The notes under the pieces are model-generated. The model did not search any database and had not been told where the DNA came from. It saw only the letters and a program-made list of their open reading frames with translations. From NCBI GenBank assembly GCA_947561715.1, contig OX387203.1, forward strand, positions 6,510,001 through 6,574,000: a stretch of 64,000 nucleotides of DNA, in the 5' to 3' direction. The translations under genes and the position numbers were made by a program. Below, one piece after another: positions 7,979 through 63,992 of this stretch; the first letter of the stretch is position 1, and each line of letters starts with the position of its first letter. This DNA is from Ascidia mentula (Eukaryota > Chordata > Ascidiacea > Phlebobranchia > Ascidiidae).

Positions 7979-8454
7979 CGGCGAGTTGTAAATTGACGGG
8001 TGAGCGTGTATGTAGGTCCGACTGATCGAGAAAAACGTTCAGGCATCGCGTTTGAACAGGCGCCGACTGGATCTTACAGACAGGAGTTGTAATGTGTGGC
8101 ACTCGCGGACAGGAAAGGCCTTGATGGCGAAAGGAAATGGCACCTCGACCTGAACTAAGTTCTGTCAGCCCGGCCGACGCCCAGGAACGCTAATCGCGAG
8201 GCAGGGGAAAGAAAGAACTGCCCGCGAAAAAGTCGCGGAATATACAAAAGCGAGTGGGGCAGTATGTGTGACAGACAGACGTCGATGTGTAGGTTGTGGA
8301 AATAGTCTAAGAAAACTGGCCTTAGATTTATAAGTGTATATTTTGTATTTCCAAAACAGGTGACAGTTTGTTAATTTTGTTACTTATCAAGTGGATCAGG
8401 ATTAACGATTTTGAAAAGAAGAGATTGACTCTGCGTACAAAATTCTGCGGAAGA

Positions 8455-11400
8455 ATGAGGCCTGAAACCTCGTGGACGACGATGGCGAGACGGGCCAGCA
8501 TGATCGTTTGGGGACTTGTTTTATCGACGGTTGTCGTACAGACTGGGCATCGGACACTGGCCAACGCGACGTACGTAAAACAGCCGTCACACTGTTTGCC
8601 GATTCCCGTAAATATGAAACTCTGCCACAATGTGGGCTACCCGCAGATGATGCTCCCAAATTTCTTCGGTCATGAGTCGTTAGACGAGGCGCATCGTCAG
8701 TCAATCAGTTTTGTACCACTCATTGGCCAAAATTGCCATCCGCACACCAAGATATTCCTCTGCTCCTTGTTTGCACCAGTGTGTCTGAGCGGAGGTCCTA
8801 TCCCACCGTGTCTGTCTCTCTGCGAAAGCGTACAGGATGCATGTCTACCCACCTTGCTTAAATTCTTCTTTGACTGGCCGGAGATGCTCAACTGCTCGCA
8901 ATTTACCAACGATCATCCCTGCGTTACGATAAACTCTTCCAGCACCCCGAGTCCATCTCCAACGCCAGAAAGTAAGTGCTTTGCTTGTGAGTGTTGAGTG
9001 AAAGATCTTAGTTATAATAGGTACTATGGTTTTAAATGGTGATTATGCTGTGCGGAACATTATTTCAAATTAAACCTTGAAATAAGACACCGTTTTTAGT
9101 GGCAGTTAGTTTTACCGCATTTTGTAAACCTTCATACACTATTGCATGGATTTGGGGTGCTTTGAAGTGAGGAGTGTTTGTATTCAATAATATTACTTGG
9201 AAGGTTCCACTTTTCAATGCTCTATTGTGTATTCAGTGATTTGGTACAGATATGGTTGTTTGCACTTTGTTAAGCGTGGGTGTCTGTTGTTTGAGTTCCG
9301 GACCATTAGTACTTCGTTCTGAAACTGAGTCAGAAGTGTTTTACGAACACCTGTAGCCGCACTGACAAATGTTAGATTCTGTGATATTCTAAGGAGGCGA
9401 TTGAAACTAAGTTGACATTTTGTGGTCACTGCGCACAGCTGCGAAAAGTACATTGCTTAGCGCCAAAGAAAAGACAAATGCACTAAAAAGAGCCATAATT
9501 TAAAATAGCCGAATACAAGTCCCGCATACTTGGCCCTCTCGGGCACATAAATGTTTTTAGTACCGAAATGACTAAGAAATCCAAAACCAGACTATGTTCA
9601 GTATGGTCGCCTCACACGAAATTTAGCAAAGAAATGATCCCAACCAGGTTTTGGGGACATAGAATTCAAAACACGTTCAAAACTCATGCCAAAATATGAA
9701 ATGCAATATGCGACACACCGCAATGGTAGTCGTTGGAAAAGCTGGATCCTGGATGGTAGCCCAGTCTTTTGCCCGTAAAAATTTACTACTTCAATGCTTG
9801 GCGTGCGGAGTACGGTCACCGAACTTTAAACATCCATCACCTTTGCATTAAACCCTTTTGCTCAACTGCGTATCATATCGTTCGCCAGACAAAGTACACA
9901 GCAGTATAAAAGACCCAACGACGGGGTTTAAATTTATGATATCGGTTTGTCATGACTTGCCCCCACGAAAGGCAAAGCAAAGCTCGAATACACATAGTTT
10001 CCCATGCCAATTTAACTCAATAATATAAGGCCGCCAACTTTGCTTTGTTTAAATTTTGTTTTGGCTGATGTCGTAACTTCGAAGTTTTAACGGTTTTCTA
10101 GCATTCGGGGCTTTAAAAACGGCGGTAGACATTTCAGGCATGCTACGTTATATAACCCTTTAACTTCACCGGCAGAAATAAAATTGTAAAGACGTTGTTG
10201 TTTCTCAAAACTTTAAATTATGCGCCTCAGGGCGTCAAAACAAAAAGCTTGTTGACTTCATTCACGTGGGCAACCAAGCATTCCTCTGCTCCAGTAGACA
10301 AATTCGCCATCGTGCTTAGAATAATTAAATAATAGGCCATGGATTTCGGCGCCTAATTCGTTTGACGCGGTCAACGTGATTTCGTTACGCACCAATCCGC
10401 GCCATGAATTTTTAAGACAGTGTTTATTAAAAGTTTCTCACGTTGTATCCTAAAAACGTTGGTGAATTTGCCTGTCATGAGGCTTTCTGGTGAAAACTTT
10501 GTAACTTATTTAATTTTGATTTTCTCGATTGCTGGCTGTGTTTTTTACATAGAACTGTGTAAAAAGCTATGAGATGGGATACCCCGACTACAATGCTGTT
10601 CCATCATATAACAGACGTATCCGTGCACCGTAAAACAGTTGTTTTTGAGTCGCCCTAACTTATGCCGTGATGGGGAGCGCCTCAGGTTCAAGTTGACTCT
10701 AAGGGCGCGGCATCGATGATTATGATTGACTGAAAAGTGGGGTAGTACGGTCGTAGCCTACCCACATTCTCACAGCCATGCAAATGGAGGGTGGAAATGT
10801 CCCTTTTGCGAGCTCAACGTGGGTGGGTATGAGTCGCTTGTGATGCTGTGCCGTATTCCTTTCTGGCCCACTTATAGTGCAAGCGGAAATCCGCAAATGA
10901 GGACGGTCGCCAGTTTTAAGTTTTGCTCAGTCAGAGTGGAAACAATGCAAAACCGTGACCTCCGGCTTCGAGATCCGAGGTCATTTACATTTGGAGAAAC
11001 ACTCAAAATCGTATTTGCAAAACCAAAGGAAAAAAAAGCGAGCGCGTCTTGCACGTGACGTTAAAAAGCGGTTTGGCGCCAGACTGTGTGAGGACAGGCC
11101 GTTAAAACTTAACGCCAGAGTAAGATGAACCAAGTATACTGTTATTGTTATAACACCCTTTTTCTCGTTTAGTGCTGTTACGGGGCAAATCGCGCTTACC
11201 TGGAGAATAACACTTAAAGCGTAGAATAGACAACTTTAAACGTGTGATTCCTTTTTCTTGACCAATGATAGGCTTTTGTTTTTTATCTTGGTAAGCACCA
11301 GCAGCAACTCATTGCAAAAACTTGCGTTAGTCAAAACCACAGCTGCGCATACATAAGTGGGCGCTTCACAACTTTTTCGTCTTGACTTTGGTCGAATATA

Positions 11401-28154: not shown

Positions 28155-31100
28155 ATGTTGCGGATAGCTCTGTGTTTCACCATGATAGCGACGGTTCTTG
28201 CAAGTAAGTTTTTTATGTAGTACCAGCGTACAAGTTATTTGTCCTACGATCCCCGTGTAGGCCCCATCAATCAAATATACCAAAGGCGCATTACAAAATA
28301 AACGCAACCTCGGCGTTTCGAATGGCACACGTGCGCATACGATACCTTAATTTGGTAACAACCGCTGGTATCGCCCGCCAATTGTAACGCGGTTGGTGCC
28401 GAATTACAAAGTGGATAGGAAACGGATGCTTCCCTGCGAAACGGAAAGGCGTGTGTTGTATTTGTGGTGGATAAATATCAACATTATATTTATAAAGTGA
28501 AACACGCAATTGCAAACCTGACTACATTTTTTACGCGCAGTTTTTTTATAATGTAATGTAAATTTGAGTAAAAAAAAAACACTACTATTAATCAAAAAGA
28601 CGACAAAACAAATTTCGATCATAACCTCAAGTATAAATATACAATTGACGTCACTTTGCACGAGTCGATGCACGATCTTAGCATGTGGAATGCAGCACCC
28701 ATCCCTAAAAGGTCACAACAGGGCCAAAAACTTGTTTTTTAATCTATCATATGATTCCGGCTATCAACGTGACGTTCACAAACGCAATCCCGGAGCCAGA
28801 TCAATCATAACCAGGAAGGTAACCGGTGTCAATCGGTTTAAGGTCGTTTAATACTCTTTTCGTCGTGACGTATTTTGGCATGAAATGGAAAACCTCTAGC
28901 TTACATTTCATCGTTACACCAGGAATTTCATCACATCTGTTGTTAATATGTCAATTGATTGATTAGACCTGTGTCAACAGATTGCCTTTTATGATATTAT
29001 TATTATGGTGTTCTATAGGAACCGTTTACGCACCGAACATTTCAGTGCGTTGTTCCTGATGAATACAAAACACAAAAACCAAAGACTGTGATTTATCACA
29101 AATCTAGATTGGACGAAGGATCTCACTGTTTGAATTTTATTTGCACAAGCACATGCTTTCCATAAATGTAAACTCAAAGTTTTCGATGCACAAGTTCGTG
29201 ATTGCGAGTTTTCCAAAAAAATACCTAAGAAGCAAAGGCCGCGTGGCAACTTTGACTTCGAGCCAAACATGACCTTCACAGACAGCAGAAGGTTCAACCC
29301 CAAACACGTGGAGTGCAAACAAGATATTGTGATATCGCTGACCTATTGCAAATCAGCGAAGAAACTTAGTACCACCTCGGGCAGTGTAACGCTAAGGAAC
29401 ACGACGTAGGTGTTTTGGGTTTAGGCAGGATTGTGGCTTTAGTGTTCTTATCCCATTGTTGATGCTTATTCTGGTACACCACTTAATAGTGCTAATGGAA
29501 TTTTTGAAGTGAAAGCTAGTTTTAATCCATTTGACCGTTAAACTGTTAAATCTAATTAGTTATAACAGTAACTTGCAGTTTTTAAAATCATCGCAATTGC
29601 AAAAAAGTGTCACTGATTTCGAATGAAAAATGTTGTGGATCATGCTAATGGTTTTATTATTCTAGGTATCATTGTTAAAAAGGGAAATTTAAATATTTTC
29701 TCACAAAAACACATAATTTTAAACTTGTACATATCCTACTTGGTGTGTTCCAACCCGTAACGTTTTGTCAGGAAAAAATGCACAAACTAGACGAGGCCGT
29801 GTAATTGTGCGACTTGGTTATCGCGAAAGAGCATCTGCAGCAAGATTTCAATCTTCTGTATACAAACCACAGTAAGGTACATGAAACAGGGGTGGTGAGC
29901 CATTGGCGCCTCACAAGGCGTTTTAAGGAAACTGGTTTGCTGTTGCAGCAGAAGAGTGGTATAAACTGGTAACCATTGTTTCCTGAACCGAGGATAAGCT
30001 TTCGCATTCGCTTCGGGAAAAATGAAATATTTAGAAACTCATGACGTCACGTAATTCTACTTAAAACAAAAAAATATGGTCGTTTTTTATTTGTTATATT
30101 CATGTTGCCACCCGACATTACTCCCTTACAAAGATACTGTTAGGATGCTATCCACTGTCGTATAGTGTATTGTTTATTATTTGCATGAAACGAAAAGATT
30201 GATAAATTTTCTTTTCGTTGATATAACTATTCGCCGAAATAGATACAAGTTCGTTAAAACAAAGTTATGAATGCTACTACGAGTTGAATGCTGCATAATG
30301 GTCACAATGTTACATCAAACACAGTTGCAATTTCACGTGCATTTATCCTATACAATTGTTGAGACGCCTTTAAACATGTTTATCTATGTTTAGATACACG
30401 CTGTGGGGGGCAGTGGTGCCGAGGCATCAAACGTTACTGCTGCGAATCTGGTCGAAGGCCTTACTGCGTCGTGAGCCCACGAAGCTGCGTGTCGAGGACG
30501 TTATGCGCCCGCGTGAGATGCCCGGAAGAGACGCCTCACTGCTGCGGGAGCGAAACAGCGGCTTTCTGTGTGCGAAGTAGCAAGCAATGTGCACCGAGAA
30601 ATGGGTGCGGCTCGTCCCGGTGCAGTTGGATCAAACCCTACTGTTGTGACAAGGATGGCGAGAGGCAATACTGCACCTTCACGGCGCGCACATGCGTGAG
30701 CAGACAGACGTGCGGTGGAGAATTTTGCGACCGTCTCAAACCTTATTGCTGTCCGGTCGGGGGCGCCCACTGCACGCGGAGCAGATTCACTTGTAACGTA
30801 CGCAAGAGGGCGCCACAGAACAGACCGCAGGTGCGGATCAACGTCAACCGACGCACCTTCGGTAAGTAATTCCTATTTATAACGGAGTTAATGTTGGGCA
30901 CAACAAATATGTTTACCCTTAAGAGATTGGCGATCATTTCTTTTCCGTTCTCATTTACGCAAATTTAAACAAAACATGTATATTTATGTGAACTGCATAC
31001 AAGACCACTGTTTCGACCACTAAGGTTTATAATCCAGGGAGCAATTCGGCTGAATATTATTAAACTTCACATGTTACCTACAGAAAGCACAGTCTGCGGA

Positions 31101-31901
31101 AGTATGACATGCTCTCCAGTTCGACCAGTTTGTTGCACGCAGGGCAGCCGACCCTACTGTGCAGTGAGCGTGCGAAGTTGCCAAAACCGCCGATTAAACT
31201 TTTGTGGAAACTCCGTTTGTTCGTCTCTTAGGCCCCATTGCTGTACATTCAGAGGTCTGTCTTTCTGTGTTGCGAAAGAGAGTCAGTGCCCAACACCAAG
31301 CTGTGGAAGCGAGACATGTAACCGAGCTAAGCCGCACTGCTGCCGTCGCGGACCTGAGCCTTACTGCTCGGTAGGGTTAAGATCGTGCGTGTACAAACAG
31401 CGCTGTGGGTCGGGATACTGTTACGCCGCCAAACCCTACTGCTGCGGATCTGGAAAATTTGCAAGTTGTGTCAGGAAAGAACAGCAGTGCGCTGAGAAAG
31501 TGACGCCCAGGAATGAGGTTGCGGCAGTGGCGACGACTGCTACGACTCTAGCAACGACGACTGTGAAGCCAGTGGCGACGACTGTGGAGCCAGTGACGAC
31601 GACTGTGGAGCCAGTGGTGACGACTGTGGAGACTCTCGCGACGACGACTGTGGAGCCAGTGGCGACGACTGCTACGACTCTAACGACGACTGTGGAGCCA
31701 GTGGCGACGACTGTGGAGCCAGTGACAACGACTGTGGAGCCAGTGGAGACGACTGTGGAGACTCTGGCGAAAACGACTGTGGAGCCAGTGGCGACGACGA
31801 CTGTTGAGACTCTAGTGACATCGAGCGGCACTAATAACGCGCCAAACGCAACCACTAGAGTGAGCAGCGGAGCAGGCTCCGACGCTGATACTATCATGTA
31901 A
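28155..31901 (+). CDS. Secreted mucin with eight novel six-cysteine modules
   Basis: Three exons (28155-28203, 30394-30861, 31084-31901), joined in phase 1 throughout, give 444 residues. Exon 1 is a signal peptide (MLRIALCFTMIATVLA). Exons 2 and 3 each encode four copies of one module, C-x4-C-x6-CC-x7-C-x6-C, with typical residues CGS..C near the start, KPYCC in the middle and YC before the last cysteine. Two modules in exon 2 vary by one residue in the fifth-cysteine spacing. A Thr/Val/Pro/Glu stalk follows, made of TVEPVATT-like repeats, ending at TAA 31899-31901. There is no transmembrane segment, so the product should be secreted and O-glycosylated on Thr. AATAAA follows at 31963. It is a tandem paralogue of the gene at 35188. 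I recognise no named domain; function is unknown, with epithelial, coat or immune-surface roles only guesses. Confidence 0.85.
29019..29409 (+). pseudogene. Unassigned coding-like segment, two overlapping frames
   Basis: Inside intron 1 of the mucin gene, a frame opening right after a TAG (AG 29017-29018) runs 48 codons to 29162. It includes FQCVVPDEYK and SHCLNFICTSTC. A second frame on the same strand opens at 29134 and runs 91 codons to TAG 29407-29409. It includes HKCKLKVFDAQVRDC and VECKQDIVISLTYCKS. The two overlap as a one-base shift would make them, as if a single cysteine-bearing, secreted-looking protein segment had a frameshift. Phase does not fit splicing to the mucin signal-peptide exon. 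I do not recognise the family. It may be a broken gene fragment, a sequencing error in a real exon of another transcript, or chance. Confidence 0.3.
31558..31813 (+). repeat. Coding minisatellite, 21-bp unit (TVEPVAT)
   Basis: Imperfect tandem copies of ACTGTGGAGCCAGTGGCGACG, with in-register variants (gtgacg, gtggtg, gagactctg), encode the mucin stalk of the 28155 gene. The unit is a multiple of three, so copy-number change keeps the frame. Each unit supplies several Thr for O-glycosylation. Confidence 0.85.
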
Positions 31902-31962
31902 TTGCTTATTTTACCCACAAAATTTCAATGTTTGTACTATTGATTTTGTACATAAATTTTTC

Positions 31963-31968
31963 AATAAA
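31963..31968 (+). terminator. Poly(A) signal of the secreted mucin gene
   Basis: AATAAA lies about 60 bases after the stop codon at 31899-31901. Its closeness supports this as the true end of the gene, without a downstream transmembrane exon. Confidence 0.65.
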
Positions 31969-34900
31969 TCACATGATGGTTATACGCCGGGTCACATTTT
32001 TATGTTCAAAGTACCCAGACTCCCTAAATAATCCCACAGGGAGCTTTTACTACATGTTTTAATTCACCATAAACGTGCAACGTATACGGAAAGACGTGAT
32101 AGTTCAACCGCATAGCATTGCTTACAGAGACTCGAATGACCAGCGTAAGGCGTCATTACTAGAGTTTCGTGTGTACGCAAATGCTAAGTTAGTCCACCGT
32201 ACAAAATGAAATATTAGCTTTGCATGTTCGAGATTGCTTAGAACGCGGCAAGGTCTTAGGTCTCTATGAAGCGTAGAAAGGTTTCATTTTACTTGGGAGA
32301 CAGGCCTTTTTAGTGACCGAAACGTAGATTTTAACGACAGAAGTTTTGGCCACATTCGTCCTGTTTATAGCGTTTACCTGACATGTAACAGTGGTGAATT
32401 CTAACTGGTGTAATATGACGAGAGATTGGATGGTATACTGTTCATATCATAACATCATAGTCATGCTTCATGCCTAAATCAAATTGGTTTTGCTTGTGAA
32501 ACAACTGAGTAAAACATACCTTAACCTGAACTAATTGTCGCCATGTAACCTTCGACCCAAGAAAAATGATGACAATCAAGAAACGGTCAATTAGCGTCAA
32601 ATAGGAGTTATCCTCAATTAAGCCATTTTCACGAAAGAAATCCAATAGGACGATAATTCAACCGGGCCGGGCAGCAATTAGAACTGCTTCGTTAAGGCCA
32701 ATATCAGATAGAGCAGTGATAAATACCTGGAGAATCAAGTTTTGGGTGTCTGATAATGCGCATGTTTGCGCAATTTATACTGGCGTTTCAAAATAGCTGC
32801 TGAAAGTCATTTTAAAATTTGGAATTTCAAACAGAAAACAAAAGTGTAATTTGTAACTGATTGTAGCTGATTTTTACGTACTGTAGTGTCCAGAGAACAA
32901 AGGAACATTTGTTTTATTTTTTACTGTTTCCATCAGTTAGTTAGAAAGGATTTCTGAAATGCTAGCATCCTCTGTTAAAAATATCGTGATAGTTTAGATG
33001 TTGGAGTCGTAATATATGCTTGTATCACGTTGATATCAAAAACACAGAAACAGCATTTTGGGGAAAATGCATTGATTGGTTATAAATACTTAACAAAATT
33101 CAAATGCACGGACAGTTAATAGGAATTGTGAACAACAAACCCTGACAATAAATTGCCATAATTTGGTTTAAACAAAAATAATCTGACATTTTGAAATAAA
33201 AATCGTGAAACGTAAACAAGAAGTTGGCGAAAAAATCCACCGCGGGGCCATACAAAGTACCAGGCCACCGTGCGAATAACGCAGCCCACAATTAATTCGG
33301 TCTTACTAAAATGGTAAGTGGGTGGCATATTAAGTAGATATCGTTTCGCATAGTTCCGCATTATGACGACTTCGTGGCAACGATGCAAAAAGGACTGTCC
33401 TTTTTTCTTCATTCGCCCACGCGTGCCCGCTTTTTTATTTACGCACGTCCGTCGAATGCAAAACTAATCGCGTGCTTTTAGTAGTTTCGGTGTATGTGTG
33501 TTGAAGGACGTCACACTCAGAGTTATGCATGCAGAAATAGGGATGCATTTGCTGTGATAAAATGTGTTGATAATTTTGGTTTTTATATGGTAATATATAT
33601 TTATATTATATTTTTGCAATATACAGAATATTGTAAAGCTGAGAAAAGTTGTTTTCAATCAACCCGCTCTATCGCTCCAACCTTCAAGGTTGTGTCTTTA
33701 GTTACACCAACTAAAACAGTTTTCATTAAAATAATCTTTACATCAAATAACCAAATATCTTCTCGAAAACCGACAAAAATTATTACAAACGCCTGTATTA
33801 GAATTTACAACCAGCCTAACGCAACATGAGCATAGCCCAACACCAAGCCAGCATAAGTGCAGTGTTAATTCAGGTGCAAATAGCAGTAAGTGTTGTGGCT
33901 AATCATGGATTTTGTAACAGGCAAAGGTGGTATTTGAAAGTGCAGTGGTTTCCACTGAACGGAGAAATGCTTATGATGAGATTCTGCACGCGCCGGACGA
34001 TAATTTGAATATAGGCTTTAAATGGAAGAGGCAATATAGCAAAAAAAGGTCATGAATTTTAGATTGCATACAACAAAAGGTTTGACACACTATAAGCTAA
34101 TGGATGTATGTATTTAAATATTACTACCAGCAGAAGAAACATTCTGATCTTCTTAAAAAAATGGTGGGATGTGGTACGCATGTAAACCTAGAATCGCCAA
34201 GGCGACACAACAGGTATAAATTGTTTGTCGCTAGTGCTGTTTAATGCAGTTGAAGTAACGAAGTGTAGGAGAGGTTATGTATTAATCCAATTTGTGTAAT
34301 GTTAGCCAGTTTTGCTATTCAGTCGTGAGTATCAAGTATGGTCAAATGTTTTCAAATAGTTTGAATAACAGGTTAGTTGTACTGGGCATAGCCAACTACC
34401 CATTAACCCAAGTAGGTTCTTTGAAGCATATGAGAAGGCAACACCTTGTCAAAATACGACAGAATTTTGCGAAAATTGTGCATTTAGACATCATCATATA
34501 CTGAATACGGCGTTGTATTATCTCTCATACAGTTTATTAACCTAATATAGGCCCAAAGCGCCCTAAAGCTGTAAAGACAGATTTAATTCGAGCTCCTGTC
34601 ACACCTTTGCACTAAATTAGCCGTTACGTTGACGGAACTATGTAGAATAACATACGCTGGTCAAGCGATGCCTGTTGCCGGTTGTTCGTGACGATCCAAT
34701 TAAATATCTTGTTGGGCGCTTAGGTCATCAATCGTGACCATTATCTTCGAAAATCAGACGCTTGGACCTAACAAGTGTTTACACACAGCACACGCTCACG
34801 CATAAACTGATGTTGGCACGGCCGGGCATGGATTAAAATCATTAAGTCCGATGAAATATCTCAGTCCATGATACATATACACAATCGTGTTTGAGTGGAC

Positions 34901-35187
34901 AGCACCGAGGTCGCCAATTAATAAGCCCACAGGTCAAAAAAATAAACCAATTTCGCGATTACTGCGAAGCTTCAGCCATCGTGATCCGATTAAGATTCGG
35001 TTGCCATTGGAGAAAACCTCGAAGGTCTGTTACATTCATACTGTGATACCTGAACTGAGCATTACCTGTTGCAGGATATAGTTAATTCGTGGAGTCATAT
35101 CGCCAAGTGCGTAGGCGAATTGGGATTGGACAGTCCGTTGGTAATTGTTACTTTGCAATCTACTGGAAAGGTGTGTCGGTGATCGGA
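31969..35187. other. Intergenic region between the two mucin genes
   Basis: About 3.2 kb of AT-rich sequence. Open frames are short and show no family motif. I looked for a transmembrane-encoding exon that could extend the upstream mucin gene, as in its paralogue, and saw none. Nothing else recognisable. Confidence 0.6.
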
Positions 35188-38100
35188 ATGGAAGTAATGA
35201 GATTTGTGGCAATTTGTTTCGGCCTATTTGGCATCGGTGCTCTCGTCGATGCCCAAGGTGTGTATGTCCTTGATAAATTGTAACATATTTTAGCATTTTT
35301 TTCCTTTTCACAGTAACAATATAGATATGTACATTTTAAACATTATGTTGGCTATGCTGGATTGATAACGAAATATTGCAGTATTGAAATAACTTACCAG
35401 ATGTAACATAACCATTGCAATTTTTATGGTCTCAAGTTGTGACACTTTTTAAATCAATGAATCGGGAATTGTCGCGTAAACTTACATGTTTAAGAAATGT
35501 TGCTGCCAATTTTAGAGTTTAAATCCGATATTCAAATCATAAATGCAATAAAGCTTGTAGGTCATGTTCCGACAATTTCAATCGAATAACATTATCCGAA
35601 GGGTGCCGAATTTCGAAACGATTACGGGTTGGCATCTTTGGAACAACAAGCAATGAAGTGCTTTAACCACTGAATAAACATGTTCAAATCCAAGTTTGGA
35701 ATCCACTTATTTTAAAAGAGCAGTTGTGCTTTGTTGTCCAAGTCTCATTATTGTAAAGTAAGGAACGTGAATTCCGCCATTAAACATACTGAAGTGCAAA
35801 TTTTGCACTTTCGAGACATTTAAAGTTGAGGCAATTACGATCATAATAGGACCTTCGATATAACACCTGAACTCTGCTTGTGAGTGACAGGATTAAGTAG
35901 CAAAAAGCTGCGGCAGGAGGTAAACAACATACCTTAGTTTGCGACTCACCATGTACTATCGCCCGAGGAGCAAATTTTTACCAACGCGCGCGTTGCACGT
36001 GCCACTCAGTGATATAAATCTCGCGTCGATGTCATGGAAAGGCGGTTTTCCGCAAGTTGTGAATATTTACAGATTCGGTTTTTTTCGCAGTTTGTCATGT
36101 TGCTTATCATATCCAAATTGCGTGTTACGATATAGCCCCTAAAATATTTATAGGTCGCCTGTATGTCTTAAGTAAAAGCAGGTCTTAACACAAGTTTAGC
36201 AACATCTAAAAACACACCAAAAATTCAATTTTACCTAGAATCGGTATCATACGATTTATACTTGTGTCCCAAACCAACTTTCAAATACAAACCGCATCAG
36301 TCAAAGGGCACCGAACATTAGAGGAATATTATAACCAGAAAATATACATAATGTGGGTGACATTGCGCTGCACGTCAGGGGCAATTTCGTGACATCCAAA
36401 ACAAAAAACGGCGAAGGAGATGCCCTGGAAAAGTCAATACCGTAATATTGGATCCTTTAAGACGCGTGGCTTAATTTCTGTTGAAACATGGGATGGTACG
36501 TGCAATATAATGGGCACATTATAAAAAACCTGGTGTTCGTACTGAGTGATACAAAGAGAAACGTTTGATAGATGTTAGCAGAAAATATAAATTGATTAAG
36601 CTTACATCCGTATATTATGTGATTCTGAAAGCACTGTTATACTATATGTTACTAATATTTAAAAGTGATGGGCGCCTAACTAAAGAACCTTTATGGTTTT
36701 ATCGGGGGTGTTCCATTCTATAAATTTTGTTATTTGTGTTTTAGTTTATCATTAAATGCATTTATTTGATATTAATTAACTTTAGGCTATTTGCGCGTTC
36801 TATTATACTGTATTTTGTTTTCATTCACAAACGCATGTAAGCAAAGCCCAGGCAATTAACAATAATGTTGTGTTTTTTTTAGGAGAACAATGCGGATTCC
36901 AGACCTGCAACATTGTGAAACGTTACTGCTGCTTGAAAGGTGATACACCGTATTGCACAGTGAGTCCACGAAGCTGCGTCGCCAGGAACATGTGTGGCAG
37001 TAAAACGTGCTCGGTGAGCAAGCCATATTGTTGTGGAGTAGGTCGATTGGCTTACTGCACCAAGGCTGGACGCAACTGTGTGGCAACCATATGTGGTCAG
37101 GGGTCTTGTACAAGGCAAAAACCCTACTGTTGTGGATCAGGAAACACAGCATACTGCACAGAAAACAGCCAAACGTGTCAGGCTTCAAACTGTGGTGGTG
37201 GACAATGTCCCTCCTATAAACCGCACTGCTGTAAAGCTGGACCAAGGTTCTATTGCGCAAGGGATAGCGGAGATTGTGTAAACACTTTCGACTGCGGGAC
37301 CAACACTTGTAATGTTGTCACTCCATACTGTTGCGAAACTGGTGCAGACAAGTACTGTGCCGTGGGTCGACGAAATTGCGTTTACAGGCGTCAATGTGGC
37401 CCCAGCTTCTGTCTCTCTGAGTCTCCCTTCTGTTGCCAATATGGCACGGATTCATTCTGCACTCTCAACGCAGAGACTTGTGCAAAAATGTCCCCAAGTT
37501 CTGAGGTGGTAACACCAATCATAGAACAACCTATAAGCACCACGGCCTTGGCCACAAAGTTACAGACGAACACAGTTAGTCAGTTAGTCACCACCCCAAC
37601 GACAACAACCCCATCATGTGGACGAATCTCTTGCTCAAGAGTAAAACGTCACTGTTGCCAACTTGGACCAGAGCCTTACTGCACAGTTAGCCCAAGAAGC
37701 TGCGTATTTAAAGTGTCCTGTGGTTCCATTTACTGTTTTTCGGGCGCCCCGCATTGTTGCGCGGATGCTGAGACCCCGTTTTGTACAAACGATGTCACTA
37801 CTTGTCCTACAACAACCACTACTACAACCACAACAACAACTGCAACAACTACAGCAATTCCAACCACTACAGTTGCTCCAACGACCACTACAGTTGCTCC
37901 AACGACCACTACAGTTGCTCCAACGACCACTATAGTTGCTCCAAAGACCACTACTGTTGCTCCAACGACCACTACAGTTGCTCCAACCACAACTACATTT
38001 GCTCCAACGACCACTACTGTTGCTCCAACGACCACTACAGTTGCTCCAACCACAACTACAGTTGCTCCAACGACCACTACTGTTGCTCCAACGACCACTA

Positions 38101-40842
38101 CAGTTGCTCCAACCACAACTACATTTGCTCCAACTACCACTAAAGTTGCTCCAACCTCAGATGCAGCAGCGCCACCCACCTCAACAACTACAGTTGCTCC
38201 AACGACCACTACAGTTGCCCCAACCACTACTACTGTTGCTCCAACCACCACTGCAGCAGCGGCACCCTCCACAACGACAACACAAGCTCCAATCACTATT
38301 ACGAAGACAACGGAAAACCCAAGTACAACAACAACGACGTTTTCGGAAGGTCCATCGACTACAACCTCTATACAAACCCCGCCCATTGCAACAACAGTTG
38401 AAAAAACAACTACAACAGGTACCACCACAATAACGTCTCCAAGCACAACGACAGCAACAATAACTACAAAAACAACTACAACACCTACCACAACAAAATC
38501 TCTTACGACACCTGCAACCACAACCGCATTACCAATCGCCACGACGCAAACAGTTACCACAGCTGCTAGAACTACATCACCAACCACAGAATTAACAAAA
38601 CCAGATAACATCTCCATAGAAGTGCCAATCACCACCACAAACACAACAAGTACAATTACAAATAATGCGATAATCACAACAACAACAACCTTCGCAAAGA
38701 TGGCAACAACAGCTGCAACCAGTGCTGAAACACTAAGTGCTACAAATGCAGCACCAACTGCAACACTTTATACAACTAAACTTACACCAAATATGAGCTC
38801 ATCCGAAGCCACTGAGACGACAACTACAGGTACAACAGCAACACCTAGAGGCAATCCTGCAACCATTGCTACAACAACTACATCTGTGACATCCACAACT
38901 GCAAGGGCAACAACTAATGACGCTGTGACCGCGAAGCCTACAAAATTCTCTAAAGCCACAAATGAAACAGTTGTAGTTTCCTCATCCACAAGTTCAGCAT
39001 CAACAACAGAAGATTTTGCAAGCACAAAATTAACCACAGAAATTCCAATCACGATTGCAAGAGAATCTACGGTGCTTTCCACCAGAATGTCAGGCAATAT
39101 TTCAACAACTGCAACCACACAAACGACAATTGTACCAGTAGTTACAGTCATAAACGCAGACAACACCACCATCGTCACTAGTACATCTATATTTCAATCC
39201 ACAACTTATACAACGAATGCGACAAGCGCAGCAGACGCGGCTACCGCAGGCCCAGCAGACACACAAACTACTACGAAACCAAATACGACTTCTTCGACTA
39301 TAATAGCAACTGATAATGTAACAAAATCCTTTGCAACAGAAAACACGACTTCCGATGCTGCGGGAACAAACAAGACAAGCTCGTCACCAATACAAGGAAG
39401 CACATCAAGAGTAAGATGTTGGTTGATAACTTGCAGTTATGTTTATTAAAATCGCCGTAGCACTGTCGTGTATTTTAGACATTTATCCACCGGTTTTGCA
39501 TACCTATTAACTCACGACCTACCAATTGTACAATTAGGCTAATGCCATTTTCAAATCTTTATTACTCAGGGTGCAGATAGCGGGGGGAGCGAAACAACAA
39601 CGTTGATCGCCAGCAGCGTAAAGGAAGACCAAACTGCTTTGGAATTTACAACTACCATGGGTTCGGATGCCCCAGCTGCGACAACAAAAACGATGTTGGT
39701 GAACTCAAAAAAACCTACCAACGAGTTTCTAGTGCCTTCCACACCCTCTGTGGAGAAGACAACGAACGTAGAAGGGGTCGTGAATCAAGCAATGCCACAG
39801 TAAGTCTAATCATGGTGTATTGAGCTTGTTTAAGCTGGTGTGCACAAACACTAATTGGAATTGTCTCTGTGTTGCTAGTTAGCCGAGAAAACCGTCCTAA
39901 GTTACCAGCTGCATTGGTGAGACCCGATAGGTCTAAACAGTGTGCTGTGCACAATTGTCTGAAACTCACTGATCATTATCGGCTCATTGCTCGTACAAAG
40001 AAAATTGTGTTGCTAGTGCCTTAGGTTTTTGCATTGTTGCCAACGTTTGTAATTGGCCACGACAAAACTGGTCAGGTTTTTATTAGTAAGGATTAATTGT
40101 ATCCTCGTTTAAAACAATTACCTAAAAATATGCCAAGTCGTGTTGTAACTCACACATAGCTTCACAATTCGAATACCCAATTGAGACGTTTAACGCTAAA
40201 TTGCTGAGAAGCAAAAATTTTCACATGCCTTTCGGCTGACTTGAAAACAACCCGGGTTCCAATTAAAGAGACGCTGAAGTGTGTAATTCGTGGCGCACCG
40301 TCAGAAGTTCCGAAATGTGTTTTGGATCGCAGTCTGTCGCAGAGTGTACGTCATACGGACCTTATAAGCCGACGATCTTCGCGTGGACGCAAAAGGAATG
40401 TTAAACGCTAAGCACAAATTAAAGGAAATTTTACCGATAATGATGCATTGGCCTTGCCAAAATATTTCAAAGGCACGTTTGGGACATTGGAAAAATAATT
40501 GAAATCCTCTATGTCGCTGAAGAAGTCAGATGTTGTTAAAACAACCAAAGCGCTTGTACTACAAAACTGGTACTCAATAAAAAAATTTTTTGGAGATTTT
40601 GGTGTGAAATAGTGAACAGTACCACAGTCTTTTTTGAAAAAAAGCAATTGACAATGAATCCAGCTAGTTAGGTGTAAATATTGCTGAAATAATTAAAAAT
40701 ATAATGATATTACAGAAACCTTTTGGTGGGAGTAACCGTGGCTGGTGCTGTTCTGGTCCTATCTTTCATCGCATTCATCGTCTACCGTGTTCACCGGAAT
40801 AAACAGAAGACAGGGTTGTACGTGGTGAATTGTGATCCCTGA
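35188..40842 (+). CDS. Transmembrane mucin with eight novel six-cysteine modules
   Basis: Four exons (35188-35257, 36883-39410, 39570-39799, 40716-40842) give about 984 residues; junction phases are 1, 0 and 2. Exon 1 is a signal peptide (MRFVAICFGLFGIGALVDAQ, preceded by MEV). Exon 2 starts with six modules of exact spacing C-x4-C-x6-CC-x7-C-x6-C, then a roughly 47-residue Thr/Ser linker, two more modules (from about 37618) and a very long Thr-rich stalk that begins with VAPTTTT repeats. Exon 3 continues the Thr/Ser stalk. Exon 4 encodes a transmembrane helix (LLVGVTVAGAVLVLSFIAFI) and a short basic tail ending LYVVNCDP, TGA 40840-40842. This is a type I membrane mucin. It is the tandem paralogue of the 28155 gene, with the same module count but a different stalk. 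I chose ATG 35188 because it starts a clean signal peptide; 35197 would also work. No named domain is recognised. Confidence 0.88.
37872..38254 (+). repeat. Coding minisatellite, 21-bp unit (VAPTTTT)
   Basis: About 17 tandem copies of GTTGCTCCAACGACCACTACA encode VAPTTTT with few substitutions (FAP, VAPK, a TSDAAAPP interruption near 38155-38190). Variant units recur in blocks: the FAP unit returns six units later, which points to multi-unit duplication. The repeat is the start of the mucin stalk of the 35188 gene. Copy number probably varies between alleles without breaking the frame. Confidence 0.9.
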
Positions 40843-40956: not shown

Positions 40957-40962
40957 AATAAA
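40957..40962 (+). terminator. Poly(A) signal of the transmembrane mucin gene
   Basis: AATAAA about 115 bases after the TGA at 40840-40842, on the coding strand, supports 40716-40842 as the last exon. Confidence 0.65.
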
Positions 40963-48402: not shown

Positions 48403-51400
48403 ATGTATATTTTAATTGCTGTGTTTGCTATACTAGCAGGTGAGTTTGCATCGATAAAATTGAAAACTTACCCAGCTTTTATATGATGTTCACACAATGC
48501 AAAAAACTAAGTGTTGTCTTGTCAATGCCAGAACCATAACCTTGTCACAAAGGACAGTGCCATGAAATAAAACAACATAAACTGAAAACTTTGATTAAAA
48601 TATCGCTCTGTTGCACCGATAACCTATACGTTTTTAACTATTGTAAAGACCCCGCTAATGGCCAAGCTGCTTGTGGAGGAGTGGAACAGAAAGGACAAGG
48701 ATACGTTATTACACCCAACTACAACAAACCTTATCCTAACAACGTTAAGTGCGTTTGGGAGTTTCCATTCCGACCTAACGACCTAATTTACGTAAGTCTG
48801 TACTGCATATTATGGGCTACGGAGTCGCAAAACGGCAATGCCGATAAAAATTGATGAACTATTTCAATGGCCAAAGTACGACGATTGAATCAGTGATATG
48901 TTTATAAACAAAACTGTCTTCCCGGAAATACTTTGTGGGCGAATACCCAATCTAACTAAGTTATTAAAGATTTTATTTCGCAAATTTTATGTCGCCAACT
49001 GAAAGATAATTGATTTATTAAGATTTGGCGATTTAAACAGAGAATCAAGATAATAAGTTAGTCTCTGACGATATTAAATCAAAAGCGCAGAATTTATCAA
49101 CACATTTGTACAGTTGACGCTAATGGACATGGCGATTGACAATGGAGGTACATGCAAAAAGGACTACCTTCGGTTCGAGTTTTACGGCAAAGCGCCGCGT
49201 ACAGTATGTGGCACACAAACGAATCGTGAGCAGTTTATTGGATCTGGACCCGCAAAAGTGGTATTTGTAAGCGATGGAAGCAACCTCGCTGCAGTCCGTG
49301 GAATCTACATACAGTACAGAGGTACGACGTCTAATCTTGCTGCTCATTATTATTTTGGTCGAGGTGTTGCTGAAACAAGGAATGTGTTATGTTGTTCATA
49401 ACTCTTTGAAAGCGATAAAGCTATGGAATCTATATGTGGGTAGTTTTCTCCATTTTGTTTACAAATAATTATTTCATTTTGTCGGCTACCAGTCAACCCA
49501 CTGCTGGTGTAAACTCTATTGACACAGTGAGTGTCTATGCAGTGAATTACAGAGCGTATTTTTGAAGACGTGTATTTAACTGCGCACTACATACGTTCTA
49601 ACTTTAAACTCAACCTCATGCTGATTGAATTTGCTAACCAAACCATTGATCAGCATTATCCCTTTGTAATCACGCTTATATTTTAAAGTACCCACTTTTT
49701 CAGTGCGACAGAATGCGGCTCAGGTGGTGAGTCCTTGTGTTTCCAATCCTTGTCTGAACGGAGGCACCTGTAGTCCCGCACGATTTAACTACAGATGTGC
49801 TTGCCCTGACGGGTTCGAGGGAGACAACTGCGAAACGGAAGTTGAATCAAGTGAACAATATTTTCTATTTATGGGAGCTAGGGGCAATCACAAGGCCAAC
49901 AAACTAAACAACAAGGGTGCCAATAACGAAGTCATACTTTTAGCTTAGAAGTAACCCAAAGGTAGTCGTTTTAAAGTTGACAGAAACACAGTTTTTCGTC
50001 CACAAAGGTGCAGTCAACTACTGTGACCCGAATCCTTGCACAAACGGAGGAACATGCACGGATACTGGAGATGGCTTCACCTGCGCGTGCCCACCAGGAT
50101 GGACTGGAGACACTTGTTCAGCAGGTGTAGGCATTGTGCATGCTTGTTTTGCTTTTTTGTAGGGCTTTTATGCACCATATTCATTGGATCAAAGTTTATG
50201 CAACAGCACCACACAACGTACATTTTAGACGTTTTTCAGGCACATGTAATGGAATCTTTCGGCCAAACAGAATTGGTTTGAGACAAAACAGTCGTAGCCC
50301 GTCTGACCTTTTAAAACGAAGGCTTTGTGTGTCTTAAAGTTAAACCAAACTTACACCCATCACAAATTTAATTTCGATCATCGTAATTCTTCCTAGCTAT
50401 ATTTAGAAAGACCTCAGTCAACAGCAGCACTGATTCAATCTAATAGGTCGAAGCCTGGCTGACTGCAACTCTGTAATAAAATCATTCTTATCAAACATTC
50501 AATTTGGTAGATGTTGATGAGTGTGCTGAAGGACCTTGCAAAAACGGTGCTACCTGCGTTAACGGTGCTAATCAGTTTACCTGTACCTGTCTACCGGGAT
50601 ACACTGACGAGACTTGCGGAACAGGTAAAAAAGCCGTATAAGTAGATAGATCCGGAGTAGATAAGGCAATTCCTCTATTATAGTTTCACAAATAGTTTGC
50701 ATGTTTTCGTTCAGTTTAGTGAAGTTAGCATGATATAACGATGTAGGCCTACACAACGAAACATAACAGATTAAAAATGATTTAAAATCAACGTCAATAC
50801 AGCTACTTTTAAAGTTCACATTAGGTATTGTTTTACGTCCATACACTTCCATATATATTTAATTTGTGCGTCTGAATGTCGCAGACATCAACGAATGCGA
50901 TTCCTCGCCTTGTCAGAATGCAGGAGAATGCCAAGACGAAGTGAATCAGTTTACTTGTAAATGCCAGGAAGGTTGGTCGGGCGAAACCTGCACCGAAGGT
51001 GAGATGACTTGCAACGTTTTAACTCTAAATGTTGGCAAGACAGTTTTTTGATAACGATCTTACAAACGCGATCGACGCAGATTAAACTGTTTGGCCCGTG
51101 TTTTCAAGCATGATTCCAGCATGGTATATCTTAAATTCACGGTACAGCATCATTAAATGGTTACAAGGTTTTTGGATATCTTGGTGCAATCTAAAAACTA
51201 TTAAAGAACCATAATTCCTAGGTTATTTTTAGATTGTATTCTGCAGCATTTTTTCCTTAGAATATTATTAAGGTTGTACCTAACATCATTTCTTCACAGC
51301 ATGTATTGTTGCCCTATTGGGACAACTCTGTGAGTAAGAGAATACGAAAAAAATGCCTGTTTGGTTAAGATATCAACGAGTGTGAATCGGAACCTTGTGA

Positions 51401-54400
51401 AAACGGTGGGAGTTGCGCGAACGGCGTGAATATGTTTACATGCAGTTGTGTGGATGGCTGGGAGGGAGATATGTGTGAAACCAGTAAGCAAACGTCACAA
51501 AATCACATGCTTGCTCAACGGCCCGCAACCACATATGTCCAAAAATCTTAATTTGTGCAGACAGTCCTAATTAATAAGTTTGTTTCCAATTGATTCATGT
51601 ACAAAGTAATGACAAATGATGTTTGTTTTGCCAAAAGCAATTGCGCAATTGAAAATTAACATAAAAAATTCTAGTCCAATCTACATAATTTAGATATAAA
51701 TGAGTGCCAATCAGAACCTTGCCAGAACGGTGGCACTTGCGATGATGGGGACAACATGTTTACCTGCACCTGTGCCGAGGGCTGGAACGGGGAAACTTGC
51801 GATAGTAGTGAGATACACACGCTGCTTTGCTATGTTAAAACCACAAGTCTTTAAATGAAATGTCATATACGCTTTCATATAAATTTAATTTACTCTGGTT
51901 TGGTGGATGGGTGATTTGCCCCACATAACTGCTATTGCTTTGGGGTAATGAACATTACCGGAGGCTGTCTATTTGTGGATCCCAACAAGTGTGTATCGGT
52001 TACGGCTAGTTGGACAAAATGTTTTAAATGTCAGTACGAATATCCGCTGCAATGCTTCTGTTTTTTTTGCTTGGAAGGCTGATTTTCGTTTTTAACACAG
52101 TTTAACTCATTCGCTTGTAAACACTTTTGAAATTTGCACTCCTCTTTTTGGGAAAGCAAATAACTAATAGCAAGGCGAAATCGCATAATGCTTTGTAGCT
52201 ACGTTGCATAACATTGCAAACTGTTGTAATCAATTTCAAGCAGCTGCTAACCATGTATGCGATGTGAAGTACAAGAGTTAAAGAGTTATTAATCGACATT
52301 GATTGCGGTGGAATTTCAGAGGAGGAAGTTAACGAATGCGAGTCGGAACCCTGTTTAAACGGAGGGTCTTGCGAGGATGGGGATGGAAAGTTTACGTGTA
52401 TTTGTGCAGAAGGATGGATAGGCGACACTTGCGAAACTAGTAAGATCTGGTCCGGTATATGCAGCTCTTGCTTTGGTGGTTGGCTTTAAGTTCAGCAAAA
52501 ACGTCCAAGGAAAGACTTGGTCTTCTGTATGAAGCTATAGCTTTTGCCAAGGTGATTGAATTAGATGCTTTACGTTTTAGCAAAAAAGATAGCTCATGTG
52601 CGTATGCATGTGTGCTGCTTTTGCCAAGAACTCGCAGTTAGGTTTGGAATCGCTTGCCATTTCCAGCTTTCTTTGGTATGTTGTTGTAGTTGCTTTTTTT
52701 GCAATGAACATTTTCTGTTTCTTCCGGCCGTAAAGGAAAACAATAATAAAATCCTAACCAATCAAATTTGATGCCGAAATGTAGAAGCTCCGCTCATACA
52801 AATGCTTGCATCGCAGTTTGCGTGATGTCTTGGTGTAGAAGTTTTGTATATGACTACATGTATGTTAATCCAATGAACAGGGAGAGTTTAATATATCTAT
52901 ATCTTTTTGGTGGAAGACACTGTACGTCTCTTTTCAGAGGAAAATATAAATGAGTGCGATTCGGAACCGTGCCAGAACGGGGGCTCTTGCGTCGATGGCG
53001 ACAATGCGTTTACGTGCAGCTGTGTGGACGGTTGGAGTGGCGACACTTGTGATATCAGTGAGACCATTGCGCTAAAGCTTGCTTAGAGCAGGAAATCGAA
53101 ATGCGTTGATCCCCATTTTCGAGTGGTCAAATCCATCGCTGGGATCGACACATTTCTGTGCTTACAACACATTCCAGGTTATGCTGGAGTGTAGTTTACA
53201 GCTGAGGGGCGCATCGTTCAAAGTATCGAGTATGTTTGTGCGGTAAACAGCTCATCGGCACCAAAACATAAACTTTCGCTTCAGCTGAACTGGTACTTCT
53301 GCTTTGGTTGTCATAAAGTGCAATCTTTCTTTAGCAAATATATACAGCAACACATGGATTTCAATTTATATTTAGAGGACGAAATAGATCCATGTGAATC
53401 GCAACCATGTCTCAACGGTGGTTCGTGCGAGGCTGGTAAAGATATGTTTACGTGCACCTGCATGATTGGTTGGACTGGGGTCACGTGTGATACCAGTAAG
53501 ATACACGTCGATGCTTCACAAGCTACTTCTCTATTGCGCTATCACGATGTTAAATCAAAGGCTTGCTATGGCAGTTTATAAAGCCATACTGGGAAGCCTT
53601 GTAGATTAGACGCTTGACAAAACTTTTGCAAAGCACTTTGCAGAAGCAAATTACTTTCTATAGTATAAACGAGTTGAACTTTTACGATCTATTTGTAGTC
53701 ATTTCTGTTGGAGTTTTTGATCCCTTGCCCAGGCTTGAGCTATAAATTCACTAGAATATGAAATCCATACAGTTGCAATACGCGTTACTTGGTGTTTTGA
53801 TGGAAAATGATCATCAAAGCTGTATCTTTGATATTCCGGTGACTTGCGCTAACATGTTAAAACAAAGACACAACCAAACTCTGAATTAGCTTTGCTGATC
53901 AAATACTCTGCTTCTGCTTTACGCGACAAGATATTGCATAATACTGCTATGCAACGTGGTAGCAATAGGCAGCTAATGCACGTAGCTGTTACGCAGCAAT
54001 TAACTATAAATTGGGGCCATCCCGTGAGTTAAAGGATATTCTAGAGACGGATCCATGCAACTCTGACCCGTGTCGAAACGGAGGGAATTGTCAGACAAAA
54101 GGCGAGGGATACGATTGTAAATGTGCCAGTGGGTGGACAGGGCATACATGCGAAGTAGAAGAAGGTACTTGATACAACAATATACAGCAACACTCTCTTA
54201 GTTTAAACAGGCAATGACGAGTGGCCATTTTATGGTAATCGTTTCACGCAAACAGGCGGTAATCTGGAAGAGAATTATTCGTCGCATTAAAACCGCAACG
54301 TTTTTATTCAAATTTTCACAGAAGTTCAAGACCACTGCACACCGAATCCTTGCCGCAATCAGGGTACGTGCACGAATACGGCCAGCAGCTTTGAATGCAG

Positions 54401-61334: not shown

Positions 61335-63992
61335 CCGGGTAATTTCATCATGTCGTTTCTGGAGTAATCCGTGCATATCGTACTTATTGAATAACTTTGT
61401 TGTCCTGCAAAGATAATATAAACAAAGATAATAATAAAATAATACAATTATACTTCATCCAAGTAAGGAAAAATTAAATGAAAATATAACCAGTTAATGT
61501 GGTCTGCGGACAATCGTTGAATTTCCTACGATGTTGTCCATCTCTGCGGAAAAAGTACACAAGCGAAAAACAAAGACTCAACGGATATGCAAACAATACA
61601 TAAAATAATATTTCAAACAAAGTACATTGTCCAACAGAAATGTACTCTTCGTATGTCCTTCCAACCCAAGCAACAGGGCATTTGCAATAGAAAAATATAT
61701 AAAACACATATTTTAAATGAAGCACATTGTTCAACAGAAATGTCCTTCCAACCCAAGCAACTGGGCAATTGCAACAGAAAAATAAAAAAAATTATATTTC
61801 AAACAAAGTACATTGTCCAACAGAAATGTACTCTTCGTATGTCCTTCCAACCCAAGCAACTGGGCATTTGCAATAGAAAAATATATAAAACACATATTTT
61901 AAATGAAGCACATTGTTCAACAGAAATGTCCTTCCAACCCAAGCAACTGGGCAATTACAGTAAGAAACAAAATATATAAAACACATATTTTAAATGAAGC
62001 ACGATGTCCAACAGAAGTGTCTTCTTCATATGTCGGTACTGATCAACAGTTTTCCGACTGCCCAGTGTGTTCTTCCAGGGCATTCAGTTAAAATCCTTAT
62101 GCTAGTTTCATTCCAAGTAGCAACTTTGGATTTAATGCTGGTATTTCGGTTTTGACGAGTTCGATTCTCTCAGTTTGAAAGATTCGCGGGCGGTGCCTGA
62201 AACAAGTAAGTTTATAGGTTATGCCTGGATGTATGTAAACATGTATGTATATAATGGGGCAGTTGAATTCACCTTTCAAGACCGAAACTAGAAGACCCTT
62301 TGATGCTATATGCTTCTATATGGAGGTTGGTCATTCCCAGAAATGTCCTCGTAGTAAAAGATTTGCATGAAAAAAATCCGGTATTATTCGAAATAATAGT
62401 TGGCGACATTGTAAATATCCGTTTCTAATATAATCAAAATATTATTGTTTTACACTGCTGTAGCGGGAACTTGCAAGTATAGTGTTATGAAATTTTTATT
62501 TGTTGAATGGTCGATGTTTGCCGTCTTTGGTGAAAAAATTCCAAAGCATTGGTTGTTGGAAGGACAAAAATTCGTGATGTTAAAATGGGATGTAATTCTG
62601 TATTCTTTCACGCAATGTTATGTCCAATCCTGACGCAGAACGCAGGCGAGGACCGTGCACTGTCCTCGCAAAATAAAAAGCAGCAGCAGCAAACGTTGTA
62701 GTGACAAGTACCGGGGGATGTAGTGAGAAGGAAAAGGCGCAGAGAGCATGGAATGGTAACCGGATGAAACCGGTTTCAACCAGTTACCGATATTACACCG
62801 GGTACTTGCTCAAGACAACGCATAACATAAAATAAAACAAAACATGCATGCATGCGAGCGCGGCGGAACAGGATTGGACACATTTTTACGTGACGTACAA
62901 ATTCAAATTGTCCAGCATAAATGCTCTATCAAAAGTTGGGCCTACTGTGAAGTGAGTTTTTAGTCCAAGTTGTTACACTGCAAATTTGGGAAGGTTTGGT
63001 AATGCAACTAGATAAGCCTTTTTTAGGTCAATAATGTGAAACACATGAACTTTACAACCAAGATAAACTTGCAACACTTATCCGACGCTGTCCCGACGGC
63101 TGGGAAGCTTGATCGTTGAAGACCTATAACACACAAACACTTGCAACTAAACAAAGTTGCCACAAAGCCGGGCAATGTTTCAACCTAGTAAAACTAAATT
63201 TCGTGATCCAGGACTACGACTAATACAATGCTTGTGTTGGGCCCACAGCCGTATGTAAAAACATATTGTTGTATGTAGTCAACTAAATGGCGACACATGA
63301 AATTGATGCATCTGGAGTTTGCTATGCATAATGTGATTGTTATGCATTAACATTAAGTTGGGCTAACAGCAACGAAGGCATAAGTCTGTAATACCTGATG
63401 GGAAGAGTGATATCGCTGGATCTTATTTGTAAAACTGCTGCTGTGCAACTTCGCTGTGTTCATAAAATCTGTAAACAAAACCGAATGTTAGACACAACTG
63501 CTTGTAATATTAACTATTTGCTGGTCCAGCAAGGAATCAACGCCGTAACAGTTGCTCACTTCACAACTTATACACAACTACCACTTTCTCAGTTGCAACA
63601 AAAACAAAACCCACCTGATGTAATAACATTTTTTTACGATGGATAGACGCTTTCTCTCCGCTGAATGTGTTTCGAGGCACAAACTTAATAAGTCGACCGC
63701 TGGTACCGACATATATCTACATAAATCGACGTTACATGCAGTACACGGTACCTTAATATAGTGTTACTGCATGCACTTTGCACTACATTAGCGTAACAAT
63801 TTCGAAAAATCTAAATCGGACAACATTTCATCATTAAGTCGTAACTAAAGTTCAACATAGCTGCCTAAAACCATGCTTAAAACAAACGTACAACTATCCG
63901 CCATCCGCACATTTTAACGATAATCTTACTTAACTTGAGCAAAAAAGAGCAAAACTTACTTCCAGCATCTTTACTTCGTCAAACACGTCCAT
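61335..63992 (-). CDS. Possible minus-strand gene, two exons recognised
   Basis: Two splice-flanked open segments suggest a gene read leftward from the right edge. The first, 63992-63960, starts with ATG, encodes MDVFDEVKMLE and stops exactly at a consensus donor (GTAAGT, phase 0). The second, 61404-61335, lies between a strong acceptor (pyrimidine-rich, TTTGCAG) and donor GTAAGC and encodes TKLFNKYDMHGLLQKRHDEI within a 23-codon open frame (entry phase 2, exit phase 0). The phases mean at least one exon between them is missing from my reading. A candidate entered by the acceptor just right of 63112 (encoding FNDQASQPSGQRRISVASLS) is only weakly supported by its donor. I recognise no family. 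Confidence 0.3.
61611..62040 (+). repeat. Higher-order tandem repeat, 186-bp period
   Basis: Two kinds of related unit alternate: a unit of about 100 bp starting TTTCAAACAAAGTACATTG (61611, again at 61797) and one of about 86 bp starting TTTTAAATGAAGCACATTG. The pair repeats with a 186-bp period, and a partial, more diverged third copy follows to about 62040. The units share TCCTTCCAACCCAAGCAA and CAACAGAAATGT. Copies within the pair differ more than copies one period apart, so the dimer was duplicated as a whole. 186 is divisible by three, which keeps one long frame open by repetition. Confidence 0.85.

Follow-up and report, generated by a model that had tools for sequence, protein, structure and literature searches.

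A tandem pair of mucin-like genes with heads of eight six-cysteine modules in the ascidian Ascidia mentula

Gene models and layout of the pair

We analysed a stretch of DNA of 64,000 nucleotides from Ascidia mentula (assembly GCA_947561715.1, contig OX387203.1, positions 6,510,001 to 6,574,000 of the forward strand), hereafter called the window, in which two adjacent genes, A and B, encode mucin-like proteins whose heads are built from eight copies of a small six-cysteine module. Both genes are on the + strand, A at 28155-31901 and B at 35188-40842 (positions of the window), and the region 28155..40842, in which a previous reading of the letters (hereafter, the sequence-only reading) had placed a tandem pair of mucins, runs exactly from the start of A to the stop of B. 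The gene models, produced from the window DNA, consist of three exons and 444 residues for A and of four exons and 984 residues for B, with GT-AG introns and continuous frames, and AATAAA poly(A) signals are found downstream from A (at 31963) and from B (at 40957 and 41179). As far as gene models can tell, A and B are thus a well-supported gene pair.

Precisely, exon 1 of A (28155..28203) encodes a signal peptide, with a hydrophobicity (KD19) maximum of 1.32 at residue 2. Exon 2 (30394..30861), located by the module pattern and the gene model, carries the modules A1 (30402-30488), A2 (30504-30590), A3 (30606-30695) and A4 (30711-30794). Exon 3 (31084..31901) carries A5 (31095-31181), A6 (31203-31289), A7 (31302-31388) and A8 (31404-31490), followed by a Thr-rich stalk, recognised by its repeats and composition, and by the stop. 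For B, exon 1 (35188..35257) encodes the signal peptide (KD19 maximum 1.92 at residue 3) and exon 2 (36883..39410) encodes the modules B1-B8, from 36891 to 37805, together with most of the Thr-rich stalk; module coordinates and composition place a Thr-rich spacer of 45 residues between B6 and B7 (37482..37616). Exon 3 (39570..39799) encodes the end of the stalk, and exon 4 (40716..40842) a transmembrane segment (KD19 2.66 at residue 947) with a short basic cytoplasmic tail. Signal peptides and membrane segment were called by hydrophobicity alone. In both genes the first intron is of phase 1 and follows the signal peptide, after 49 coding bases in A and 70 in B.

The six-cysteine module

A six-frame regular expression search of the whole window returned 16 modules, all on the + strand between 30402 and 37805 and all inside A and B. 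Loose enough to admit a change of loop length, this expression had only five other matches, antisense and of low complexity, within the Thr-codon stalk of B. The spacing is exactly C-x4-C-x6-CC-x7-C-x6-C in 14 of the 16 modules, which are 28-30 residues long, and the two variants differ by one residue between the CC and the fifth Cys (x8 in A3, x6 in A4). The signal peptides, the eight modules per gene and the count of exact modules given by the sequence-only reading were all borne out. The exact pattern occurs 14 times in the window, versus none in each of 200 order-2 Markov windows.

All the ectodomain Cys of each protein (48/48) sit within modules. Besides these, each signal peptide has a single Cys and so has the tail of B; the stalks contain no Cys. 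Because of this distribution, we infer that the modules are most simply three-disulfide units without a spare thiol. Outside the Cys framework, the opening CG is present in 15/16 modules, Y/F just before the fifth Cys in 14/16 and Y/F/H just before the CC in 15/16.

The single module (34 residues), as modelled with AlphaFold, had a predicted local distance difference test (pLDDT) of 88.7 and a predicted template modelling score (pTM) of 0.50, and a model of two modules (66 residues) had a pLDDT of 83.1 and a pTM of 0.50. The predicted secondary structure comprises strands, at the CC and the fifth Cys, and then, ahead of the last Cys, a helical turn of three residues. According to these models, the module would form a small compact fold, predicted with fair confidence.

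Heads, linkers, stalks and membrane anchor

The head of A has a net charge of +35 and an isoelectric point of 9.24, that of B a net charge of +12 and an isoelectric point of 8.44. Basic residues are present in several linkers of A, and a basic linker of 26 residues between its modules 4 and 5 contains dibasic sites; only one of the seven linkers of B is dibasic (VYRRQ). The stalk of A is 135 residues long with 33% Thr, and that of B about 611 residues with 39% Thr, in agreement with the Thr mucin stalk that had been described after the modules. Both stalks are encoded by 21-base repeats, whose 7-residue unit, such as TTVEPVA in A or TTVAPTT in B, is of a common TTVxP type.

By hydrophobicity, a transmembrane segment is present in B and none in A as modelled. 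A search of the genome found no second copy of the membrane exon of B, and hence none behind A. As modelled, A would be secreted and B would be a single-pass type I membrane protein.

Paralogy and module history

In protein searches of the own genome, the head of B matched A with E 3e-23 (41% identity) and 1e-21 (43%), exon 2 of A matched B with E 5e-22 (45%) plus weaker pieces, and exon 3 of A matched B with a best E of 2e-16 (49%) and pieces down to E 0.005. Because of these head matches, the common phase-1 first intron and the common TTVxP stalk repeat, we consider A and B as shown, at the level of sequence, to be tandem paralogues.

The modules share a mean non-Cys identity of 24% within A and of 25% both within B and between A and B. 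Such nearly equal values indicate that module divergence preceded the gene duplication or was independent of it. Odd modules are closer to one another (36% non-Cys identity for odd-odd pairs) than even-even (22%) or odd-even pairs (21%). Label shuffling gave as large a gap between pairs of equal and of unequal parity in 12 of 10000 rounds. These figures suggest that the arrays grew two modules at a time, with most of the signal in the odd modules; B3 is off the pattern, being closest to the even modules A8 and A4.

Searches for relatives of the module

Pfam and NCBIfam were searched with three module stretches, in a scan that covered the two genes except for the last 132 residues of A and both signal exons, and no match of the modules was obtained at E ≤ 10. 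We considered as composition effects the matches below the Pfam cut-offs in B, namely HAGH_C (E 0.13) in exon 3 and FeoB_associated (E 0.024), Syndecan (E 0.065) and SKG6 (E 0.086) in the membrane exon. Among 177635 PDB sequences, four matched at E ≤ 10, all partially and with a best E of 0.1; those to hydrophobins and to an esterase, covering 12-15 profile positions around the CC with E 0.1 to 1, were judged chance. A two-module profile against the PDB sequences, and the head of B against the PDB at E ≤ 1, gave no match. The suggestion that the pair carries a Cys module of no named family in mucin-like proteins therefore held, with no Pfam or NCBIfam match at E ≤ 10 and no whole-domain match among the PDB sequences.

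As for structure, Foldseek with the 34-residue model retrieved no PDB chain at E ≤ 10, very short models being hard for this program, and with the 66-residue model it retrieved two weak matches, the Shisa 3 N-terminal domain (E 4.2) and a zinc finger (E 8.1). Comparisons with VIA (both models) and BFVD (one model) returned no useful relative.

We found no paper giving the Cys spacing of the module. Among the matches listed for KPYCC-type strings, none was on ascidians or mucins by its title, two dealing with cone-snail venom and one with hydrophobins, and among those listed for tunicate mucins and cysteine-rich proteins the module was not described in title or abstract start; the portion consulted of a paper on the Oikopleura house does not mention it (PMC3390340).

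In the genome of A. mentula, protein searches with the three module stretches led to A and B; in one of the three, two weak matches (E 0.05 and 0.2) turned up at other places as well. When the genome was searched with codons spelling C-x3-[K/R-like]-P-[Y/H]-CC, 18 places matched, 8 in A and B and 10 elsewhere, versus 14 for the reversed control; since this search scored only the best candidates and its pattern fits half of the known modules (8/16), it may have overlooked divergent copies. Among 92 loci examined, the looser six-Cys pattern was present only at the loci of A and B, being absent from the 10 other pattern places and from the two weak places. One scan of bacterial and archaeal contigs with the head of B gave 32 pattern stretches, none confirmed as a relative, and one scan of viral contigs gave no stretch, so that these scans do not support a bacterial or viral origin.

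Comparison with known systems

Hevein opens with CG, has an aromatic residue before the fifth Cys and a last spacing of x6, and its strands lie at the CC and the fifth Cys, with a short helical turn after them. The modules resemble it in the CG start, in the aromatic residue, in the predicted strands and helical turn and in the last x6, whereas the loop lengths differ. The order C-C-CC-C-C, found in 16/16 modules and shared with hevein (PF00187) and 6C-hevein-like peptides, belongs to cystine-knot and 6C-hevein peptides according to passages of two papers (PMC5478723, PMC6042386). The module had been called unfamiliar by the sequence-only reading, and this stands for its loop lengths and sequence but not for its framework.

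The chitin-binding motif of hevein is given in a part of one of these papers as SxPhixPhiCGx4Y (PMC5478723). In the modules, S after the CC, G after the fifth Cys and Y/F/W before the last Cys each occur in 0/16, and among the four hevein positions examined (with the first aromatic, in a loop of different length, left out) only the aromatic residue before the fifth Cys is kept (14/16). A search of the whole genome with PF00187 at E ≤ 10 gave 6 places, none in A or B and none over the cut-off. We rejected membership of the hevein family, since PF00187 misses the modules and most of the chitin-binding positions are lost. By analogy, the module may work like a small carbohydrate-binding knottin.

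The granulin (epithelin, PF00396) module shares the C..C..CC..C opening and a hairpin predicted at the CC, but it has twelve Cys rather than six. Since PF00396, with 28 places in the genome, matched none in A or B, and since each module has six Cys, we rejected this membership as well. Elsewhere in the genome, a granulin array is located at G000 C67:10878555-10888316, where the second half of the granulin model matches 12 times within about 10 kb and first-half matches lie in between, an arrangement that would fit an intron inside each granulin module.

Fungal hydrophobins share the short KPYCC string and provided the best PDB sequence matches, but this likeness is limited to 15 profile positions, with E at least 0.1. 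The same string occurs once in each of two papers on cone-snail venom (PMC10892987, PMC12300008).

Transmembrane mucins have the layout of B, that is a signal peptide, a long Thr-rich repeat stalk, a single transmembrane segment near the C-terminus and a short tail, and by hydrophobicity and composition only B of the two genes has this layout. The difference is in the head, which in B consists of eight unnamed six-Cys modules, with no Pfam domain above the cut-off in the scanned stretches. The Ciona gel-forming mucin Ci-GFM1 is a tunicate mucin of a surface layer, as A and B would be. It is described in part of a paper as having the assemblies D1, D2, D'D3 and D4, with a cystine-rich end at its C-terminus (PMC6109156); in A and B, unlike this mucin, the ectodomain Cys are confined to the modules. 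A gel-forming mucin was rejected, the scanned stretches having no VWD or cystine-knot Pfam match and the stalks no Cys.

Other features of the window and the genome

Upstream of the pair, on the + strand, there are a fucosyltransferase stretch at 841-1263 (Glyco_transf_10, E 4.5e-23) and a Frizzled-type Fz domain stretch at 8326-8994 (E 1.2e-26). Downstream, a run of + strand open frames at 49944-53578, with one EGF-like domain each (49944-50159, 50480-50638, 50863-51048, 51675-51851, 52892-53083 and 53195-53578, the last by a Pfam EGF match and the others by eye), resembles one EGF-repeat gene with one domain per exon. The open frame at 61521-61979 (+) consists of repeats of a unit (around MSFQPKQLGICNRK) and is probably a tandem repeat at the DNA level.

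Chitin synthase-like exons were found at three places in the genome, two of them with stops inside the matched stretch, using a model that is not specific, as it also matches 4/14 bacterial and archaeal control genomes. On contig C73, at G000 C73:9216996-9255856 and C73:9281720-9316943, three very weak Chitin_bind_1 matches (E 8.1 each) and three chitin synthase-like matches are about 26-100 kb apart; these may be a local repeat cluster or chance. A cellulose synthase-like exon was found at the one place matched by PF03552 (E 7.8e-5, over the cut-off, with a model that also matches three of 14 control genomes), in a frame whose TPQ and CCGTNF motifs we take to be those of a cellulose synthase. 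COX1 on contig C79 has a 539-residue frame, open under tables 4, 5, 9 and 13, in which TGA is read as a residue; several sites that we take to be conserved Gly are occupied by its 18 AGR codons, which points to the ascidian mitochondrial code, table 13. Taken with the cellulose synthase-like exon, this marks the genome as an ascidian one.

Discussion

With a confidence slightly below even, we favour the reading in which A and B are a paralogous secreted and tethered pair that presents basic disulfide modules at mucus, tunic or cell surface. Each module would close three disulfides of its own, and the stalk, if O-glycosylated, would hold the module array off the cell (B) or within mucus or matrix (A), so that the array would act as a stiff, protease-resistant and multivalent binding head. 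Because the heads are basic, their expected ligands are microbial surfaces or the acidic polysaccharides in the mucus or tunic of the animal itself, and both forms, secreted and tethered, would act within a single surface layer. A barrier or microbe-binding role, also put forward by the sequence-only reading, may follow from this. Ciona gut mucus is described, in a portion of one paper, as primarily acidic mucopolysaccharides and as chitin-rich (PMC4757023), and the gut barrier of Ciona, in passages of another, as formed by chitin membranes and a gel-forming mucin (PMC6109156). Together with the chitin synthase-like exons, these make a mucus or barrier role plausible by analogy.

Three points weigh against the favoured reading. 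The head charge is very unequal (+35 in A versus +12 in B), so that charge may not be a property common to the two proteins; most of the hevein-type sugar-binding positions examined are lost in the modules; and an alternative 3' exon of A may have escaped recognition.

Cys-rich and Thr-rich parts are often joined in adhesive and matrix proteins of animals, and A and B could be such structural or adhesive proteins, in which the modules would be rigid spacers, without a specific ligand, in the tunic, the egg coat or a larval glue. The low conservation outside the Cys (mean non-Cys identity 21-36% by class) is consistent with spacers, and the cellulose synthase-like exon fits a tunic-making animal. 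We nevertheless consider this explanation unlikely, given that B has a transmembrane segment, that the ectodomains offer no Cys outside the modules for intermolecular bonds and that the residues flanking the Cys are kept, a conservation that could be structural or due to binding. That the modules are divergent members of the hevein or knottin (inhibitor cystine knot) families, binding chitin in a gut barrier, would account for the Cys order, the last x6, the CG start, the aromatic residue before the fifth Cys and the predicted strands and helical turn; we hold it to be improbable, as the modules are missed by PF00187 and the Ser, Gly and last aromatic positions are lost in all of them, and as Foldseek, for which so short a model is hard, retrieved no PDB chain at E ≤ 10 for the single module.

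Lower still is the probability we give to polyprotein precursors of small disulfide-rich antimicrobial peptides, in which single modules or pairs would be cut at basic linkers. The modules look autonomous, A is strongly basic and its linkers offer basic residues and dibasic sites, and cleavable multi-domain hevein-like precursors are reported in quinoa, according to part of a paper (PMC8512870); but B is membrane-anchored with a single dibasic linker, and a long mucin stalk is unexpected in a peptide precursor.

As for the origin of the favoured secreted and tethered pair, it is possible, though on balance doubtful, that the module represents a domain family not described before, perhaps a new variant of the cystine knot. 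Such a family would have originated in ascidians and been built into a mucin pair that forms a barrier layer of a chordate, with ligand recognition that has no vertebrate counterpart. The novelty of the module is judged against libraries in which tunicates may be thinly represented.

Tunicates are the sister group of vertebrates. Their chitin-and-mucin gut barrier keeps chitin membranes that mammals no longer have, as stated in a section of one paper (PMC6109156). Two mucins that share an eight-module head, one tethered and one secreted, adjoining each other and not found elsewhere in our searches of the genome, would offer a compact setting in which to test how chordates other than vertebrates recognise mucus, tunic or microbes, and, if the module is a real new domain, annotation could use it to name otherwise anonymous secreted proteins.

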